The translations under genes were made by a program, and so were the position numbers. The notes under the pieces were generated by a model. That model saw only the letters and a program-made list of their open reading frames with translations, did no database searches and had not been told where the DNA came from. 25,184 bases of DNA, taken from a virus. Positions within the stretch are counted from its first letter, which is position 1. Each line of letters begins with the position of its first letter. The DNA lies in the IMG/VR virus record IMGVR_UViG_3300007514_000059, positions 1 to 25,184 of that record. One strand, written 5' to 3'. Of this stretch, positions 754 to 25,184 are shown piece after piece.

Positions 754-763
754 ATAAATATTA
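754..763 (-). promoter_or_regulatory. Possible promoter element (variant of the TTATATTTAT motif)
   Basis: Minus strand reads TAATATTTAT, one mismatch from the 10-mer seen in other gaps of this window. It sits in the 38-base gap, 31 bases before the ATG of the outer-membrane-type gene, and overlaps the stop codon of the MscS-like gene. Read on the plus strand it is TATAAATA, the T4 late-promoter core, but that would be antisense. In AT-rich DNA this may be chance. Confidence 0.25.
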
Positions 764-1168
764 ATGTTTTACAGTTTTCTCTTTTGCAACAGCATGTAAT
801 CCTTGTTTTTGTTTATCTGTGAGTTTATCAGTTGATTTTGGCAAATACCCATCTTTCGCCCTTCTTGATCCAGGCGGTAATCTTTTTTCTAAAGTTAGGT
901 CTTTTAGCTTTTCATTAGGTACTACCATTTTACTTCCCCTATCGGTCATATAAAATGTTGTTTTTGTAATTCCGACTCTTACGACTCTGGCTTCACGCCC
1001 ACTTATATAGATAACATCATCATTATTGAAATCATTACCTATAAAGACTTGCATGCCTTGAATCATACTCATTATAGATTCTTTAAAAAAGAATCCTAAT
1101 GCAAATGTAACAGCTATCCAACCATAATGACCTATGAATTGTTCCATAAGTGTTTGTTGGCTGTCCAC
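761..1168 (-). CDS. Minimal MscS-like (mechanosensitive channel domain) protein
   Basis: 135 residues. Residues about 14-40 form a hydrophobic helix resembling the pore-lining TM3 of MscS. Residues about 41-92 follow the MscS beta-domain pattern: F-x-x-x-D-V-I near 47-53, a G-x-E/A-x-V turn, a Thr-rich strand (TKTTFYMTD), and the hallmark VPNEKL at 83-88 (family: PN followed by a hydrophobic). The tail (95-135) is basic and polar. E. coli MscS is about 286 residues with three TM helices and a C-terminal alpha/beta domain, so this is a reduced version with one TM helix. The start is GTG at 1168 with AGGAG eight bases upstream; no ATG fits. It lies between tail-fibre genes and an outer-membrane-type gene. 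It might be an envelope-modifying or lysis-related phage protein, or a subunit mixing with host channels; neither is shown. Confidence 0.75.
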   Translation of the reverse strand: MDSQQTLMEQFIGHYGWIAVTFALGFFFKESIMSMIQGMQVFIGNDFNNDDVIYISGREARVVRVGITKTTFYMTDRGSKMVVPNEKLKDLTLEKRLPPGSRRAKDGYLPKSTDKLTDKQKQGLHAVAKEKTVKH

Positions 1169-1206
1169 GTGTGTTCTCCTATTTTATTGCTTCTATTCTA
1201 CTAACA

Positions 1207-1216
1207 ATAAATATAA
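1207..1216 (-). promoter_or_regulatory. Putative promoter element TTATATTTAT
   Basis: Exact minus-strand copy of the 10-mer also found at 8130-8139 and 22840-22849 (minus) and 22901-22910 (plus). It lies in the 61-base gap between the last fibre-like gene and the MscS-like gene, 38 bases before the GTG start. This is a suitable position for a promoter separating the envelope genes from the tail genes. The function is inferred from position and recurrence only. Confidence 0.4.
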
Positions 1217-1229
1217 TATATACTCTTAA

Positions 1230-3404: not shown

Positions 3405-4451
3405 CTAAAAGTCTAATCGTACTTTAATTACAGCTTCTCTATCTCTTGATTTCAATAAAGGTTGACTTAATTTAGCGACGGCTAATAACTCATTATTATC
3501 ATTATATAGACCAACCGTAGTTATATACGCTTTTGGATCTTGGATAAAAGTAGTATTAGTTAATTCTGCATTAGTTCCTGCAAAATATGTTGGATTTTGA
3601 CTCCAATTATATTTGTCAGATCTAACTCTACAAAAATAATGTGAAGATTTAATTTGTTCTTCTCTACGGGCTTGAAAGTAAGCACCGTTTATAGAAGCTG
3701 ATACAAATTTGTACGCATTATTATTATTTGTTCCTGTACTTGAAACTGTTCCAATTGCTAATGGAGCTGCATCCAATCTATCAGCGTTTAACACTATAAG
3801 TCCTAATTCAGGATAGAAAAGTCCATATGAACCAATAGTTGCAGAATCACTTTGTTCTTGTGCTGCAGATCTAAACTCTGTGGCTGTTCCACCTGATATA
3901 GAACCACTAACTACATTAAAAACTCTCTGTGATGCTTTTATAGATGAGTCAGCTGTTGCTCCACTATCATCAATTAATTTTATTGCATGGGTTGAAGTAC
4001 CAAGTCGTAATTCCCAGTTTCCAGGGTCTACTTTTTCTCTATACCGTGCTCTGTTTACATTAACAACATAAACATCCTTTGTAGTACAAGATGTATTACC
4101 TTCAGGAAAAACAAATTTATCACCACTTGCCGCATTTTTAATACAGATATTTCTAAATTGACGATATATCGCTTTAGATGGATTATTTCCATCTGAAGTA
4201 GATAATGAACCACTTCCATCAAAATGTCCGTATGCTACTGCGAACTGTACTTCTCGTGTTGAATCACTTCCCGCTTTGTCATATACATCATAGTAATAAT
4301 TTCCGCTACTACCACTTTGTGTAGAACTGGTGTAAAAGGCGGTTAAAGTTGTTGCCCCTCCAGACCACACGGGGGAAGATATAGTACTTGGTATATTAGT
4401 CCTTTTATCTTCACCTTCTAATGGTGTAAAGAAATTTGTTATTTCACTCAT
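3405..4451 (-). CDS. Tail-fibre-like structural protein, paralogue 1
   Basis: 348 residues and the first of the three cassette-bearing genes. It aligns along its length with the 346-residue neighbour: VNRARYREK-DPGNWEL block at 132-148, FxARREEQ block, QNPTYFAGTNAEL near the end, and the C-terminal cassette from residue 309 (YITTVGLYNDNNELLAVAKL). Glycine/serine-rich and soluble. ATG at 4451 with AGGAG at the expected distance; the upstream gap contains an AT-rich element (4469-4478). At DNA level a 51-base stretch (4008-4058) matches 2963-3013 with four mismatches, which points to a recent duplication or conversion. It is inferred to be a virion tail/fibre subunit. Confidence 0.82.
   Translation of the reverse strand: MSEITNFFTPLEGEDKRTNIPSTISSPVWSGGATTLTAFYTSSTQSGSSGNYYYDVYDKAGSDSTREVQFAVAYGHFDGSGSLSTSDGNNPSKAIYRQFRNICIKNAASGDKFVFPEGNTSCTTKDVYVVNVNRARYREKVDPGNWELRLGTSTHAIKLIDDSGATADSSIKASQRVFNVVSGSISGGTATEFRSAAQEQSDSATIGSYGLFYPELGLIVLNADRLDAAPLAIGTVSSTGTNNNNAYKFVSASINGAYFQARREEQIKSSHYFCRVRSDKYNWSQNPTYFAGTNAELTNTTFIQDPKAYITTVGLYNDNNELLAVAKLSQPLLKSRDREAVIKVRLDF
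4008..4058. repeat. 51-bp direct repeat, copy B (inside paralogue 1)
   Basis: Partner of 2963-3013, 1045 bases away in the same orientation. Unequal crossing-over between the copies would produce a single chimeric fibre gene. Confidence 0.8.
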
Positions 4452-8158: not shown

Positions 8159-11100
8159 TTATTTATTCTTTACATCCATCTTAGTAGTAGTTTTATCGGT
8201 TGTTACTAATATAGTCGGTGAAACTGTTTCAACTTCCCATGCAGGTGAATTATCATTCCACCTAGCTGCTGCATCTGGTACTGTTGAAGTATCAGTCTGT
8301 ACACACCCCTCATAAAAAAGTCTATTAGTTCCTATTGCCTCGTCCCATCTATTGTCTAAATCAGAACGAACAAAACTTGAAGAATACGGTTTGTGCATTG
8401 AAGCACTTAATGAAGATGAATAATAATACTCTATTTCATCATTAAATTGTGATGTTACGTTTGTTTCTACTCGTGGCATAACCACTTCTTCAAATATAGC
8501 TTGAACACTTCCTTCTTGTATCGTTGAATTATAATAATCAGTTCCATACCAACCACTAAAATCTTGATTACCTACATTATACAAAGCTGGTCTTTCTAAA
8601 ATATGTTTTAATACATATGAACCAGTTCCTGCTGCCAATTCTGAAAAAGTATTACTTGGTGCATTCCACGAAGTGAAAGTTGCTGAAAATGTCACACCAG
8701 ATCCAGTTACTTGTGTTCTATTATTCAATCTAAATGGATCATATAAATTTAGAGGCAATGTATTTAACAGTTCTGGAGTTACTTCAAATCCCGATGCAGA
8801 AATAAATCCACGTGGTTCTGAACCACTTTGTTGTGTATAATAATTAACCCTAAATGGATCAGTATAAGTTAGGTCTGCCTCAAATGTTTCATAAAATGCT
8901 GAAGATGAAATGTACGAACCTGTTAAATTTGTATGTGGATTAATACCAAATGGTGCTGACCAATTTATACTTCTTTCATAATTCTTATATTCTGAACTTT
9001 CAGAAACATAAACCATTGTAGATAATTTAGTAGTATAGTGTTGTGGTTCAAATGTAGGTTTTTTACCAATAATAACTTTATCTCGTTCAAGTACTGTGGG
9101 TTCAATCAAAATACCAACTGTAGCATTTGCACGTGCTGGAATTAAAGTGTGAACTTGTTTGTATAATGAAGAATCATAATACTTTAATAATCTCATATAA
9201 TCCCAAAAGTTATTTGGTCCTGAATACTTTTGCCAATATAAATTTCTAGCTTCTACTAATCCCGTATATTGTTCTTTATATTGGTCACGTGGATCTCCAA
9301 TATATTGGTCAAAATCAAGATTTGGCATTGAAAGTATAATATCTTCATCTATTGCCGCAGACGGTGAAAAGAATATACCAAGTTTGTTAGAATCTGTTGG
9401 TGCTTTGTCATAAGCGGGTATTGTTATACTCTCTCCAAATTTTAATACAGGATTACCGAATTTATCTATCCTCTCGTCCGCTTCAATTCTTAATTTATTA
9501 GATGACCTACCACTTGGTCCCAAATTTGGAACTTTCATCTTTGTTTCATCTACTACGGATGAAAAATGAGTTCCATCACTATTTTTAAGTCCACTCGTAT
9601 AGTTATGTGGTGTTGCAGATGCAGTAAATGATGTATCTGCTGTTACATCTTGAAACCATTGATTATAAGAAATACTTAAATCTTTATCATCGTCAAATGA
9701 ATATCGAGTAACTAAATCTGTATAAGAAGCAGATGGTGTGTTACCATCAAATGCTATTGGAGCAGATACATGATTATCAAATGAAGATTCTTGTAATGCC
9801 GTAGTCCAATTTCTATATTCCATCATAGAACCACTTAATGATTCACCAAAGTATGTATTCTCTTGTGGACCACCTAATGTAATTGTTGTGGCACTTCCAG
9901 AATATGCTAAATTGTACGATTGAGATACTGCTCCCATTGAACCACTTATCAACAAAGTGTTTGTGGATTCATATATAATTTTACTTCTACCTGAGTCATA
10001 TTTTTTAGTATATAAACTATAAACGACATCTTGATTTGTAGCATCACTTGCTAAAAAGGCTCCAGATCCAGACAATGTTCTTGTCAACATTACAGACCAA
10101 AATTCTCCATCATATACAGGAAAATTAGAAGATGAAGTTTCAAGATACCCTCTACTACCACTTAACATAAAAGATACATGACCTCTTGTATCTGCTGAAC
10201 CATTATCTTTTAATCTAATTGCCCAATCACTACCCCGTCTTACCAATACTTGATTTGAACCCGTTACCGCTTTAAATCTAAATTCTACGGTATCTGGAAC
10301 TCTATTAGTTGCTCCACTTCCTGATATTACTGGACTCCAAGCATTATACTGTACATATGTATTGTTATCTTTACCATAAAAATCTAACGCCTTTGTAAAT
10401 TTTCTTGTTAAGAAATGGTCTGCTGCTTGTCCTGCCAACTTTGGTCCCCCATACTCTACTACACGTAAAATAGAAGATGGAATACCATAACAACTTATCA
10501 ATCCTTTAATTGCCCGTGATGTTCCCTTTGTCTTTAAGAAATATGGCATATTGTTTATAATACGACTCCATATTTCTCTTGATATATCTCGTTCAGGAGT
10601 TCCAGAATATTCCCAAGGAGTTTCTGAACCAGTCTGTTCCATTCCAAAAATATATCTTGGTAATGATATTAAATCTTTACCATCGTGTACATCCCAACCC
10701 AAAGATTGTGCTACTGGATGTAATAAATCTTTTGCTACACCTTCTGTAAGTTTATCTCTCTTATCATGAACATCAGTCATTGACTTTATAAATGTCCATA
10801 TATCATCAAAATGATGACCAACCATATCTACAAATTTTAAAAAGACATCATTTTCACTATCATCTTGAACAAACATTGGAAGATGACCTTTTAATCTATT
10901 TTTATTTGCCTTATCATATGCTGATGCAGAAAGTAATTGTTCTGAATACCAATTTGATGCAATAGATTGTGAAGTTCTATATAAAACATATGGACTTGAA
11001 TATTTTCCTTGTCCTGATTCTTTTGGCCATGCATTATCATGAAATATACCAATAGATTCACTTGAATACGAAGAACTTTGATTAAACATATATTTTTCAA

Positions 11101-21219: not shown

Positions 21220-22401
21220 TTAATTCGTCTTTACTATATCACTCTTTGGTTCATCCAATCGAGTTTTTAATTCTTGAAGTGCACCTACTAATCCCATTGA
21301 TGGTCCTATAATGTTATCTATCGGTATTTTAAAATCTATTACTGAACCCATTGATGGGGCTATTCCATTTGCAAATTCAATTAACGCATCCAACAAACTA
21401 TCAATTAAATTCATTGTTTGGTCACCTCTTAATACTGGTTGAATATTAGAATTATCACTTACCCATCCAGTAGTTTCACCTTGTTTTGGTGCTGTACCGA
21501 GATATACATTTTTATGTCCTTCCAATACAATTCTATTATTACTAATTAAATTTATATCTCTATTTGAATAAACAAAAGTATCAGTACCTTTTGAATTAAA
21601 AACTATTCTATCAGAATTTAAAATTATTTGTTTTCCGTCAAATTCTTTTGGTTGTAAATCTGGAACACGAGAAAGTGATGATTGAAAAAGTGGAACTATT
21701 TGGTCAGTTGTCATCCACAAAGAAGAACCATCTTTATTTATATCTTCCTTAACAGGTTTCTTTAGAATAGTTTCTTGTACTCCCTGTCCTGCTCTTATAA
21801 TAACATTCGGTGAATTCTTTTTCCCTTCAGTTTCCGTTTCCTTTACACTCTTAACATTACTACCAAACCTAATTGAATTTCCAAACCTACCATTAAATGT
21901 TATATCACCTTCTTCTGCCTTTAATTGTCGTATAACTCGATCCTTTACATTAGGTAAATTATCTTTATAACCTTCTCTTTTCCAGGGATTATGTATTTTA
22001 CTTAATCCAGGTAATATATTAGTATCTACATTATTATATAAATTTAATTTTTGAGTATAAAATTTAGTTCCAAAATATTCTACAACAATTACATATTCAC
22101 CTGGATATGGATAATCTTTAATATTAACTTCCATAGGTGCAACCACAATAATATCATGTTCTCCCTCATTACTAATACACATTCTGGCCTCGATAAATCC
22201 ATACAATGAATAATCGGTTCTACCATCAGGCAATTTAGGTAAATCTTCTTCATCTAAATAGACCTTAATTACTTCTGCCGGTTCTAACTCATAAAATTCA
22301 GGAGTTTTTTGTTGTTTCATTGCCCTCCGAACTTCTCGTGCTGAACTTGGTCCGTCTGGCAAAACAATATGTTCGTCAGTCCTATTAATTTTATAGGCCA
22401 T
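21220..22401 (-). CDS. Baseplate spike/hub protein, gp5 / gpV-like, without lysozyme domain
   Basis: 393 residues. An OB-fold-like segment lies near 85-125 (P-x-E-V-N-I-K-D-Y-P-Y-PGEYVIVVEYFG), followed by an ITFNGRFGNSIRFGS block (167-181), characteristic of phage baseplate-assembly/spike proteins. Residues 256-302 carry alternating short strands (IILNSDRIVFNS, FVYSNRDINLISNNRIVLEG) as in the trimeric beta-prism of gp5/VgrG spikes. The end (P-V-L-R-G-D-Q, 322-328, then an L-x-x-L-L-D-A-L helix) resembles the C-terminus of spike proteins. T4 gp5 has an internal lysozyme domain; none is seen here. Start ATG overlaps the preceding stop (TAATG), AAGGA upstream. Confidence 0.82.
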   Translation of the reverse strand: MAYKINRTDEHIVLPDGPSSAREVRRAMKQQKTPEFYELEPAEVIKVYLDEEDLPKLPDGRTDYSLYGFIEARMCISNEGEHDIIVVAPMEVNIKDYPYPGEYVIVVEYFGTKFYTQKLNLYNNVDTNILPGLSKIHNPWKREGYKDNLPNVKDRVIRQLKAEEGDITFNGRFGNSIRFGSNVKSVKETETEGKKNSPNVIIRAGQGVQETILKKPVKEDINKDGSSLWMTTDQIVPLFQSSLSRVPDLQPKEFDGKQIILNSDRIVFNSKGTDTFVYSNRDINLISNNRIVLEGHKNVYLGTAPKQGETTGWVSDNSNIQPVLRGDQTMNLIDSLLDALIEFANGIAPSMGSVIDFKIPIDNIIGPSMGLVGALQELKTRLDEPKSDIVKTN

Positions 22402-22793
22402 TAATTTTCCTTAACTGATTGTATATCTTCTGTTATCTTATCTGATTTCTTTTGAATGTCTACAACTACTTCATCTATACTTGTGAGTAATTGTTCTTTC
22501 TCTTTGTCTGATAAACCAAATTCTGATTCACTGCCTCCCTTGTTTTCAGCAGCAATCAATCGTTGAACAACTGTAGCTAACTTAACAAGTTGTTCATCAT
22601 TCTTTACATTTATGTCCAAATACTCTTTTATCATAGGAATTAACTGAATAGCCATATCCCCATCTTTGATAAACGAAGCAACTTCACCAACTAATACTTC
22701 AAGTTGTTTTTTGTTATGTTTGGAATTATCATAAATGTCTTTGAATAATGATGATAGTGACTTACCTTCAAATAATTCGTAATCCTGACTCAT
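22401..22793 (-). CDS. Small acidic helical protein, first gene of the baseplate operon
   Basis: 130 residues, nearly all helical and acidic: LFEGKSLSSLFKDIYDNSKHNKKQLEVLV, IQLIPMIKEYLDINVKNDEQLVKLATVVQRLIAA, then a C-terminal coiled-coil-like helix (KEKEQLLTSIDEVVVDIQKKSDKI). No family with a known role recognised. ATG with GAGGAA upstream. As the first gene after the divergent promoter region, it heads the tail operon and overlaps the spike gene start by one base. A virion-assembly or small structural protein is likely. Confidence 0.8.
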   Translation of the reverse strand: MSQDYELFEGKSLSSLFKDIYDNSKHNKKQLEVLVGEVASFIKDGDMAIQLIPMIKEYLDINVKNDEQLVKLATVVQRLIAAENKGGSESEFGLSDKEKEQLLTSIDEVVVDIQKKSDKITEDIQSVKEN

Positions 22794-22834: not shown

Positions 22835-22849
22835 CATAAATAAATATAA
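22835..22849 (+). repeat. 15-bp inverted repeat, left arm (CATAAATAAATATAA)
   Basis: Perfect reverse complement of 22901-22915, with 51 bases between the arms, in the gap between the divergent tail operon and the plus-strand small gene. The arm may be a promoter or a regulator-binding site. It contains CATAAATA, fitting the NATAAATA late-promoter core reported for T4-like cyanophages, pointing toward the plus-strand gene. Confidence 0.75.
22840..22849 (-). promoter_or_regulatory. Putative promoter element TTATATTTAT for the baseplate operon
   Basis: Minus-strand copy of the recurrent 10-mer, about 46 bases before ATG 22793, the first gene of the tail operon. I see no convincing -35 at proper spacing, so a phage-specific or phage-modified sigma factor would be needed. 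Confidence 0.45.
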
Positions 22850-22876: not shown

Positions 22877-22904
22877 TTGAAATAAGAAAAATGGTATATA
22901 TTAT
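22877..22904 (+). promoter_or_regulatory. Sigma-70-like promoter for the 73-residue membrane protein
   Basis: TTGAAA at 22877-22882, 16-base spacer, TATTAT at 22899-22904 (five of six matches to TATAAT). Predicted transcription start near 22911, about 90 bases before the ATG, right at the first leader hairpin. It overlaps the TTATATTTAT element at 22901-22910, so the two readings describe one promoter. Predicted only. Confidence 0.5.
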
Positions 22905-22915
22905 ATTTATTTATG
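22901..22915 (+). repeat. 15-bp inverted repeat, right arm (TTATATTTATTTATG)
   Basis: Exact inverted copy of 22835-22849. Its first ten bases are the recurrent TTATATTTAT element, here on the plus strand and upstream of the only plus-strand gene. Confidence 0.75.
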
Positions 22916-22934
22916 TCGGAAATTGATTTCGACA
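22914..22934 (+). promoter_or_regulatory. 5' leader hairpin of the small membrane protein mRNA
   Basis: TGTCG pairs with CGACA, then (after one bulged G) AAA with TTT, closing on a TTGA loop. It would lie at the very 5' end of the predicted transcript, where such hairpins commonly protect mRNA from decay; as DNA it could also be an operator. Confidence 0.55.
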
Positions 22935-22962
22935 ACAGAAAACGGAAGTTAAAAATCCCTTT

Positions 22963-22987
22963 TTTGTTAAATGATAAGAATAACAAA
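22963..22987 (+). promoter_or_regulatory. Second leader hairpin just upstream of the ribosome site
   Basis: TTTGTTA (22963-22969) and TAACAAA (22981-22987) can form a 7-bp A/U-rich stem with an 11-base loop, ending one base before the CGGGAG ribosome site. Weak stem; it could keep the ribosome site open or be incidental. Confidence 0.35.
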
Positions 22988-23000
22988 CGGGAGATAAACA

Positions 23001-23222
23001 ATGAAGGAAGTCATCACATTGGTCAAAGGCTGGGTGGACGATATAGCTCACCTATTAATGTCCTTTGTAGCCATAGGAGCTGTTTCTGAAGTAATCTTTG
23101 GAACTGGCGTCTTTGGTGTTAATGTAATAGGTAACCTGACATCAATCATAAACACATTTGGCGAATCTGGTTTCGCTGGGTTAGTCGCTTTGTTGGTGTT
23201 GGTGGGTTTATTCCGTAAATAG
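23001..23222 (+). CDS. Small two-segment membrane protein on the opposite strand (73 residues)
   Basis: 73 residues. A short amphipathic N-terminus (MKEVITLVKGWVDD) is followed by a long hydrophobic Gly-rich stretch (about 17-49: LLMSFVAIGAVSEVIFGTGVFG ...), a short polar break (NTFGESG) and a second hydrophobic helix (58-71: GLVALLVLVGLF), ending in RK. Gly-x-x-x-Gly-like spacing suggests tight helix packing. No cysteine, no signal-peptidase site. CGGGAG ribosome site seven bases before ATG. It is a one-gene unit with a promoter, hairpin leader and a perfect terminator, which suggests high expression. The pattern fits a holin-like, membrane-embedded virion or pilus-associated peptide; I cannot assign a family. 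It may relate to the pilin-like genes that converge on its terminator. Confidence 0.85.
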   Translation: MKEVITLVKGWVDDIAHLLMSFVAIGAVSEVIFGTGVFGVNVIGNLTSIINTFGESGFAGLVALLVLVGLFRK

Positions 23223-23238
23223 CTATTATCGGATAATG

Positions 23239-23267
23239 AAAAAGGGGTGGAAACACCCCTTTTTTTT
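23239..23267. terminator. Bidirectional rho-independent terminator
   Basis: AAAAA-GGGGTG-GAAA-CACCCC-TTTTTTTT: a perfect 6-bp G/C-rich stem with a GAAA loop, A-tract before and T-tract after. It ends the plus-strand small gene. Read on the minus strand it ends the pilin-like cluster, whose stop codon is at 23271-23273. Confidence 0.95.
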
Positions 23268-23717: not shown

Positions 23718-24133
23718 ACTTTTATTTTCTTTCTTATATAAGATAAATAGTTATCCATTTCTCGTAACTTCGGATTATTTTTATCTTTCTTAAACAACTC
23801 ATCTCTTTTGTTTTTCAGTTTACCATATGCCTTTTTATAGTCTTGTTGTGAAATTCCTTTCATTGATTTCCTATAATATAAATGATGAAATGCTTCATCC
23901 TCGGCTTCTGCTCCACGAACTCCAGCAACTGCTGTTACTTGTTCTACTTCATAATAGACTTCAGTAACTTCTTGAATTTCTTCCCATACTACTTCATCCC
24001 ACATAGCATCTAAGTCAAGAACCAAAGTATCAATCTCTGGCTCTTGACTTAATAGAATACTACTCGTAAAGAACAGGAGTTTCAGAAAGTTCGAAGTTAA
24101 GTGAATCGTATGTGTAATAATAAATTTCATCAT
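23714..24133 (-). CDS. Small exported protein of unknown function in the pilin-like cluster
   Basis: 139 residues from ATG 24133 (ATG 24130 equally possible; the frame is open further upstream, inside the pilin gene). A hydrophobic stretch FLKLLFFTSSILLSQ with likely cleavage after SQ suggests a signal peptide with a long N-region. The mature part begins acidic (EPEIDTLVLDLDAMWDEV), continues with EVTEVYYEVEQVTAVAGVRGAEAEDEA, and ends in a basic helix (DYKKAYGKLKNKRDELFKKDK). The start overlaps the upstream pilin gene by about 70 bases and no good ribosome site is seen, so start choice is the weak point. Overlaps the next gene by four bases. No function assigned. Confidence 0.6.
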   Translation of the reverse strand: MMKFIITHTIHLTSNFLKLLFFTSSILLSQEPEIDTLVLDLDAMWDEVVWEEIQEVTEVYYEVEQVTAVAGVRGAEAEDEAFHHLYYRKSMKGISQQDYKKAYGKLKNKRDELFKKDKNNPKLREMDNYLSYIRKKIKV

Positions 24134-24479
24134 TAGGTCTTTGGTGGAATATTGCAGGTTCATCTACAGCATCCAAACTAAATTGCCATTCATTATCTTC
24201 ATCTGGTACACCAAGTTCTAAATTAACAGTTAAATTTCTAACTCTTTTTATAGTAGTCAATGGATTAAATGGCCATTCAGCCACACCATTTTCAATCAAT
24301 CTGTTATTAGCTTCTTCTTCACATCCTGCCCATATCTGGTCTACAAAAGTTTTCTCGGCTCTCTCGGTAGCCATATCTAATGTTTTACCATATCTCGGAA
24401 TTGCTACTGCTGCAAGAATACCTAAAATGATTGTAACCATTACTAATTCAATTAGTGTAAATCCTTTTTGGTTTTTCAT
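24060..24479 (-). CDS. Type IV pilin/pseudopilin-like protein
   Basis: 139 residues. Textbook prepilin N-terminus: MKNQKG|FTLIEL with cleavage after Gly6, Phe at mature position 1 and Glu at mature position 5, followed by a hydrophobic helix VMVTIILGILAAVAIP (13-28). The remainder is a short globular domain (DMATERAEKTFVDQIWAGCEEEANNRL, then beta-rich to the end). The length fits a minor pilin or type II secretion pseudopilin (GspG/H type). It would be processed by a prepilin peptidase (PilD/GspO family), not encoded here. GGAG ribosome site before ATG; 22 bases downstream of the larger pilin-like gene. Confidence 0.88.
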   Translation of the reverse strand: MKNQKGFTLIELVMVTIILGILAAVAIPRYGKTLDMATERAEKTFVDQIWAGCEEEANNRLIENGVAEWPFNPLTTIKRVRNLTVNLELGVPDEDNEWQFSLDAVDEPAIFHQRPNDEIYYYTYDSLNFELSETPVLYE

Positions 24480-24495
24480 TTTAATTCTCCATTCT

Positions 24496-24507
24496 CCGTA
24501 ATTACGG
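24496..24507. repeat. 12-bp perfect palindrome CCGTAATTACGG
   Basis: Lies at the junction of the two pilin-like genes and includes the stop codon of the first. It could be a small operator or a weak hairpin; it could be chance. Confidence 0.4.
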
Positions 24508-25158
24508 TGTTAGTGTCTTATGTAACTGAGAAGGGTTCTCAATATCTGCAACGATTAGAGCCGGTGCTTGTGCGGAAGTACCACTACCTGATCCTGGTAT
24601 CACAAGATAAATGTAAGCACCATCCTGAAATGGTGATTGAATTCCTGAATTACCAAAGTTCTTCACAAAATCATTTGCACCATCTACATCAAACTCAACA
24701 TCTACTTGGTGTGTTTCACCTGCGAAACTCATCCAATCACCTGCTAATGCATCTTCATCATCTACTGCTGGTGAAAAGACATAAACATAATCAGATAAAT
24801 CTGATGTATATCCAGTTTGTGCAGCCTTTACATAATCATCTATGTATGTTTCAAGTGCCTGGTCTGTAGTTTGACCTTCACCAAGTGTTACTCCACCTAC
24901 TTCTGAATCATACTTAGATTGTCCTGGGAATCTTCCTTTACCCTCTTCAGACACTGCTTGGTTGTAATAGTTATTTGCTACGGTAAGAATTTTATCAATG
25001 TTATTCATTGATTTCTTTTCTTTAGCACCAGCACCGACACCACCAAACTTTGGAGCGGCTGTGGTGGCTAGAGTAGCCATCATAGCTGTAGTAACTGCGA
25101 ATTCTGCGAGTGAATTACCTTTGTTACTTTTTAGCTTTTTAATTAGGTTTATGAACAT
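24502..25158 (-). CDS. Large pilin-like protein with prepilin signal
   Basis: 218 residues. The prepilin-type N-terminus MFINLIKKLKSNKG|NSLAEFAVTTAMMATLATTAAP has a basic leader ending in Gly14, Glu at mature position 5 (Glu19) and a hydrophobic helix of about 20 residues ending at Pro36. The globular part is acidic and Gly-rich, with YYNQAV, a long D/E-rich middle and a hydrophobic AYIYLVIPGSG strand near the end. The start at 25158 is chosen because AGGAG lies seven bases upstream; an ATG at 25173 is in frame but would put that site inside the gene. First visible gene of the cluster. Assembly would rely on host type IV pilus/T2SS machinery. Major or minor pilin-like role inferred. Confidence 0.82.
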   Translation of the reverse strand: MFINLIKKLKSNKGNSLAEFAVTTAMMATLATTAAPKFGGVGAGAKEKKSMNNIDKILTVANNYYNQAVSEEGKGRFPGQSKYDSEVGGVTLGEGQTTDQALETYIDDYVKAAQTGYTSDLSDYVYVFSPAVDDEDALAGDWMSFAGETHQVDVEFDVDGANDFVKNFGNSGIQSPFQDGAYIYLVIPGSGSGTSAQAPALIVADIENPSQLHKTLTP

Positions 25159-25165
25159 TTCAGTT

Positions 25166-25170
25166 CTCCT
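25166..25170 (-). promoter_or_regulatory. Ribosome binding site deciding the start of the 218-residue pilin-like gene
   Basis: AGGAG seven bases before ATG 25158; supports the shorter start. Just before it, the minus strand reads ATG AAA CTT AAA TGA, possibly the end of an upstream gene beyond the window. Confidence 0.7.
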
Positions 25171-25184
25171 CATTTAAGTTTCAT

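Follow-up and report, generated by a model that had tools for sequence, protein, structure and literature searches.

The window analysed here is the whole of a 25,184-base viral record, whose genes lie on the minus strand. Opposite to them runs a plus-strand open reading frame (23001-23222) with the 73-residue product MKEVITLVKGWVDDIAHLLMSFVAIGAVSEVIFGTGVFGVNVIGNLTSIINTFGESGFAGLVALLVLVGLFRK. The first-pass annotation had described it as a self-contained unit encoding a hydrophobic, Gly-rich membrane protein, with its own promoter, hairpin at the mRNA 5′ end, ribosome site and terminator, and with nothing else on its strand. The features of the locus and of the window are as follows, with their basis in brackets.

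761-1168, minus strand: MscS-like gene encoding one transmembrane segment and a beta-domain (PF00924, 5.6e-7), with the 18-nt promoter
1206-1223, minus strand: the 18-nt promoter again, ahead of the MscS-like gene and in like orientation
22401-22793, minus strand: divergent neighbouring gene of 130 residues and unknown function, the anchor of the conservation test
22840-22847, minus strand: ATATTTAT element reading leftwards, probably the promoter of the divergent neighbour (sequence, with the motif taken from its enrichment in the relative G007)
22894-22911, plus strand: late-type promoter element GTATATATTATATTTATT, with the core ATATTTATT at 22903-22911 (18-mer repeat, motif conservation)
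22914-22934, plus strand: 5′ leader hairpin with an 8-bp stem, 22914-22921 / 22927-22934 (predicted fold, recurrence in relatives)
22957-22993, plus strand: second leader stem, in which CCC can pair with the ribosome site GGGAG (predicted fold only)
23001-23222, plus strand: gene for the 73-residue two-helix membrane protein (relatives, dN/dS, predicted helices)
23238-23265, plus strand: symmetrical intrinsic terminator (A-run, GGGG...CCCC, T-run)
24060-24479 and 24502-25173, minus strand: phage-encoded pilin/pseudopilin genes

The plus-strand gene and its signals

We found relatives of the 73-residue protein in at least 450 viral contigs of an IMG/VR scan, and among the best 80 of these, which were kept for analysis, identity was 68-99%. 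A second scan, with the most divergent family member as query, gave 403 relatives. None turned up at E ≤ 1 in a search that covered 50,697 phage records, and comparison with the Pfam, PHROG and NCBIfam families gave no match to the protein. The gene is coding, and selection on it is strongly purifying: the median dN/dS is 0.086, and the mean minor-allele fractions are 0.08, 0.024 and 0.275 at codon positions 1, 2 and 3, third positions being about 11 times more variable than second positions. Residues K9, D13, D14 and E30 are invariant in the family, as is most of the segment GVxVIGNLTxII...FGxxGFxGL. The gene is thus real, as the first-pass annotation had claimed, and its conservation is established. 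Read-through of its UAG codon was considered and rejected, since in many relatives the frame beyond it runs straight into another stop.

The 18-mer at 22894-22911 has one other copy in the window, which is exact (1223-1206, minus strand). The motif ATA[GT]TTAT[TA] occurs in 77 of 93 leaders compared with 5.8 in shuffles, and ATATTTAT is 10.9-fold enriched upstream of genes, the tail sheath gene included, in a 216-kb relative (G007). The T4 late promoter consensus TATAAATA (PMC1524935) does not occur upstream of any G007 gene; it is found in some leaders of relatives of the 73-residue gene, but was rejected as the driver on account of its absence from G007. The enrichment of ATATTTAT in G007, including at the sheath gene, together with this absence, suggests that these phages use the ATATTTAT-type element as their late promoter. 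Late transcription in T4 (gp55, TATAAATA) offers a parallel, in that the late genes of a T4-like phage are again preceded by a single short element of late type, although the element here is ATATTTAT(T/A). The promoter of the first-pass annotation, a sigma-70 site (TTGAAA-16-TATTAT), differs from this conserved element and was rejected, since such sites are at chance level in the region (24 found, 24.3 expected); the conserved promoter is the late-type element with the core ATATTTATT. The neighbouring gene c6 was also considered as a gp55-like late sigma factor; PDB, PHROG and Pfam gave no support for this assignment, which is a guess.

The leader of the gene folds with z = -2.5, and a hairpin placed 3-4 nt past the promoter was seen again across a set of 50 leaders that had diverged by more than 15%, with a median z of -2.4 and 37 of the 50 below -1.5. 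The ribosome site GGGAG (22989-22993) lies 7 nt 5′ of the ATG and is conserved in relatives. Downstream of the gene, the terminator forms 12 pairs (z = -4.0, 0 of 200 shuffles), and a terminator was found at this place in 78 of 83 distinct relatives, whereas dinucleotide shuffles gave one in 0-1 of 83; the stem sequences differ from one relative to another. The hairpin, ribosome site and terminator of the first-pass annotation were all borne out. Because the terminators are symmetrical, they should stop transcripts from the converging neighbour too, and the one at 23238-23265 probably works on both strands. From these signals only, we infer that the gene is highly expressed.

Further structures were seen around the gene in some relatives. 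In the leaders of L008, L111, L144 and others, a U-run comes after the first hairpin, as in an intrinsic terminator, and ahead of the ribosome site. This U-run can pair weakly with the site GGGAGAAA; the arrangement could possibly serve attenuation or translation control. A covarying 3′ UTR hairpin with a constant CCUAC loop was observed in L008, L039, L045, L059, L061, L069, L075 and L076, and its CCUA could possibly pair with UAGG at the stop codon to form a pseudoknot.

Strand isolation and phage group

Most of the window's remaining plus-strand ORFs overlap genes of the minus strand and have the appearance of antisense frames, in keeping with the earlier claim that nothing else lies on this strand. 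For an unbiased test, contigs were picked by the divergent neighbour alone, with at least 430 nt of upstream sequence required (n=57); in all 57 the 73-residue gene was beside the neighbour and divergent from it. With the terminator found in 78 of 83 relatives, both the protein and its whole unit are thus conserved in the same place, which supports the notion that the unit is self-contained and serves a specific role at the membrane. In the best 80 loci, the 73-residue gene is opposite in strand to nearly all of its neighbours across several gene contexts. The isolation extends to whole genomes: in a strand survey that took in four large relatives (G007, G889, G890 and G891; about 545 kb in total), approximately 98-99% of coding bases lay on one strand, and the 73-residue gene was the only clear minor-strand gene, the other minor-strand ORFs being judged by eye to be antisense or chance frames. 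In six large contigs there was one copy of the gene per phage. The first-pass annotation foresaw neither this genome-wide strand exception nor the homology to a cellular family described below.

The phages that carry the gene are T4-like tailed phages. The window contains the T4-like baseplate wedge genes gp6 and gp25, and G007 encodes Gp23, the capsid protein (1e-77), a tail sheath, which is contractile, and a prohead protease (Peptidase_S77). The 73-residue gene adjoins baseplate genes in most lineages and is far from them in others.

Several other genes of these phages were recorded. Some lineages have a second small plus-strand gene 3′ of the 73-residue gene (L084, 10315-10545; L042, 3319-3555, plus strand), whose product has a signal peptide and a Lys-rich tail. 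Phage proteins with a TonB C-terminal domain and signal peptides are encoded near the 73-residue gene in others (L073, 7036-7371; L067, 6278-6592; and others). G007 (L221-L231) encodes two Mom-like DNA modification proteins, two SET-domain proteins and an Fe-S assembly protein, and also APS kinase, HSP20, peptide deformylase and carbamoyltransferase.

Cellular relatives and the likely host

In a scan of bacterial genomes, Opitutales contigs were found to hold relatives that are about 40% identical. A profile built from both the phage and the cellular relatives matched 123 of 245 genomes in the phylum of G005 (the MAG TMED198), with E values down to approximately 1e-14 for tandem chromosomal copies, compared with 4 of 241 genomes of Verrucomicrobiota and 1 of 398 of Pseudomonadota, the last being a phage contig. 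The cellular relatives are mostly tandem pairs, A and B, of two-helix proteins of about 70 residues (two or four copies at 40 of 44 loci), and a terminator follows 27 of the 44 loci. The phage protein resembles the type A member, to which it is approximately 35-44% identical; it is 44% identical to the copy in the same MAG, and BLASTP against L199 gave 44% (1e-17). The 73-residue protein is thus homologous over its full length to the cellular type A family.

The uncharacterised type A and type B proteins of the G005 phylum share with the phage protein their length, two-helix layout, solitary locus with a terminator and a core motif, (V)IGNL...I...(F/L)G..G(L/F).GL.A. The phages differ in having one gene rather than a pair, a late-type promoter and two to three extra turn residues. 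Glu30 of helix 1, which is invariant in the phages, is absent from the type A copies inspected and present in some verrucomicrobial relatives. A tree of 97 short sequences does not show the direction of gene transfer, and no relative was found when plasmids were searched with a cellular relative or phages with an Opitutales relative. The genes around the cellular copies, among them Amidase_3 (8 of 44 loci) and glycosyltransferases, point to no common function. A lone family member was seen on a proteobacterial-looking contig (L201, G349:C57; ALA synthase and alternative oxidase by eye), and either the MAG may be chimeric or the family gene may move between phyla.

NCBI classifies TMED198 as unclassified Bacteria only. 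The sequence TAAACTGGCGAACGGGTG, which we take to be the complement of a SAR406 16S probe (a literature search gave no confirmation), was found for the G005 phylum in 70 of 245 genomes, compared with 0 of 96 for Verrucomicrobiota, and the G005 phylum is probably Marinimicrobia. The likely host of the phage group is this phylum. One phage contig of the group is binned in the TMED198 MAG and another in a gammaproteobacterial MAG, which makes binning alone weak host evidence. Full-length homologues of the pilin/pseudopilin gene at 24502-25173 lie in pseudopilin clusters of about 20 G005-phylum genomes, at identities of up to 53%; Verrucomicrobiota gave short, weak matches only. A literature search for Marinimicrobia phages with such a gene found nothing relevant.

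A possible role at the inner membrane

Hydropathy places two membrane segments in the 73-residue protein, and AlphaFold2 predicts helices at residues 2-33 and 36-72 (mean pLDDT 81), with a pTM of 0.40 that makes their packing uncertain; the hydrophobic, Gly-rich membrane product first described agrees with this topology. Fold searches gave no PDB match and a single, meaningless BFVD match (E 6.6), and a PDB sequence search with the family gave two chance-level matches only. Positive charges at both ends suggest an N-in/C-in arrangement, so that both ends are probably cytoplasmic, and the protein probably oligomerises through its Gly-rich second helix.

The second copy of the promoter points to the MscS-like gene at 761-1168 as the probable partner of the 73-residue gene. 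A two-gene reverse-strand island, in which the MscS-like gene is followed by the homologue of the 73-residue gene, is present in 13 contigs (L406-L427; for instance, the MscS-like gene of L406 is at 3992-4333) that fall into about four sequence groups, and the islands inspected have a promoter element before each gene and a terminator after. In some other lineages the two genes are close together on opposite strands, and the linkage between them is established. The likeness of the window's gene to MscS channels consists of the PF00924 beta-domain after one transmembrane segment; the phage copies are mostly 113-135 residues long, compared with 260-286 positions in bacterial MscS models, and this short form recurs in marine phages (197 relatives). 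In two unrelated phages an MscS-like gene lies near an endolysin gene with small transmembrane genes between them, namely in L349 (MscS-like gene at 9362-9760; GH108 endolysin, phrog_315, 3.8e-44) and in L409 (MscS-like gene at 181-519; M15 endolysin, phrog_465, 5e-42). Since these are only 2 of approximately 80 MscS-like loci, the link to endolysin is only a hint, and the short MscS-like phage proteins are possibly a new lysis-associated protein.

The explanation that we favour, tentatively, is that the gene encodes an insulated, late-made helical-hairpin membrane protein, related to a protein family of the probable host phylum, that permeabilises or depolarises the inner membrane in a holin-like manner with the MscS-like protein as its partner. 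The unit would be a dedicated late transcription unit, fired only by the phage late promoter. Given that nearly all other genes run the opposite way, the reverse orientation and the two-sided terminator would shield the gene from genome read-through, and the leader hairpin probably protects its short mRNA. The protein would insert as two helices, with its ends probably cytoplasmic, probably oligomerise via the second helix, and at the end of infection would most likely act on the host inner membrane, with the MscS-like protein as partner.

A comparison with class II holins, such as the pinholin S21-68 of phage 21, shows likeness in the two transmembrane segments, the length of about 70 residues, the packing of small residues and late expression, with an N-in/C-in topology as a further probable likeness to the pinholin (PMC7312051). 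The 73-residue protein differs in that it matches no holin family, is not beside an endolysin gene, is far more conserved and has cellular homologues. No endolysin was recognised among the neighbours of the gene. In G007 no holin family was found among ten other small membrane proteins searched, which speaks for the holin-like reading of the 73-residue protein, and no endolysin among 59 further proteins. The holin-like role suggested by the first-pass annotation is thus plausible, with circumstantial support: MscS-like genes of two unrelated phages have an endolysin gene in their vicinity. Holin families give no match. Holins diverge fast, and strong conservation is unusual for them. The reading is weakened by the conservation of the protein, by the low pTM of its model, by the want of any lysis gene adjoining it, by the small share of MscS-like loci near an endolysin gene, and by the cellular tandem pairs, which are widespread, lie on chromosomal contigs and fit a housekeeping role.

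The main rival is a viral version of a host envelope protein with no lytic role. Encoded as an auxiliary gene, it would replace or join the host's paired small membrane proteins late in infection, to preserve the function of the membrane or alter its state. We regard this as a genuine if doubtful possibility: the size, core motif, helical layout and high conservation of the protein, its identity to the copy in the same MAG and the terminators that also follow cellular pairs all fit it, whereas the phages hold one gene instead of an A/B pair, and such a role alone explains neither the link to the MscS-like gene nor the strict insulation.

A structural or assembly role appears improbable, whether in anchoring the forming head or baseplate to the membrane or as a virion-borne membrane protein. 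It would fit the late-type promoter and the constant position next to baseplate genes that most lineages show, but the gene is encoded on the opposite strand and has a terminator to itself, it is far from baseplate genes in other lineages, and T4-like virions are not known to contain a membrane; the virion-membrane role proposed earlier gained no specific support. The proposed partnership with pilins is likewise weak, because the pilin genes adjoin the 73-residue gene in some lineages only; moreover, a search of the protein for a prepilin motif gave no N_methyl or GFxxxE match. It is very unlikely that the functional product is a conserved leader and terminator RNA with the peptide secondary, since purifying selection on the protein is strong, whereas the RNA sequences change freely, even if the leader and 3′ elements are structured in most copies. 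That a short ORF arose by chance among chance signals, as the sigma-70 match might suggest, is refuted for practical purposes by the hundreds of relatives, the dN/dS, the kept ribosome site and terminator, and the uniformly divergent loci.

An extension of the holin-like reading, which we consider rather unlikely, is that the host-related hairpin and the truncated MscS-type protein form an undescribed membrane-attack module, encoded in an insulated reverse-strand island by abundant ocean phages, probably of Marinimicrobia. If this were true, the insulated island would keep genome-wide forward transcription from switching the module on early, and a pair of small membrane proteins that is widespread in this uncultured phylum would gain its first link to a function. 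What was an unannotated 73-residue ORF becomes a conserved marker of a common, uncultured ocean phage group; it points to the likely host phylum of that group, exposes an uncharacterised small membrane-protein family there, and provides a clean test case of why a phage keeps one gene against the direction of all others.
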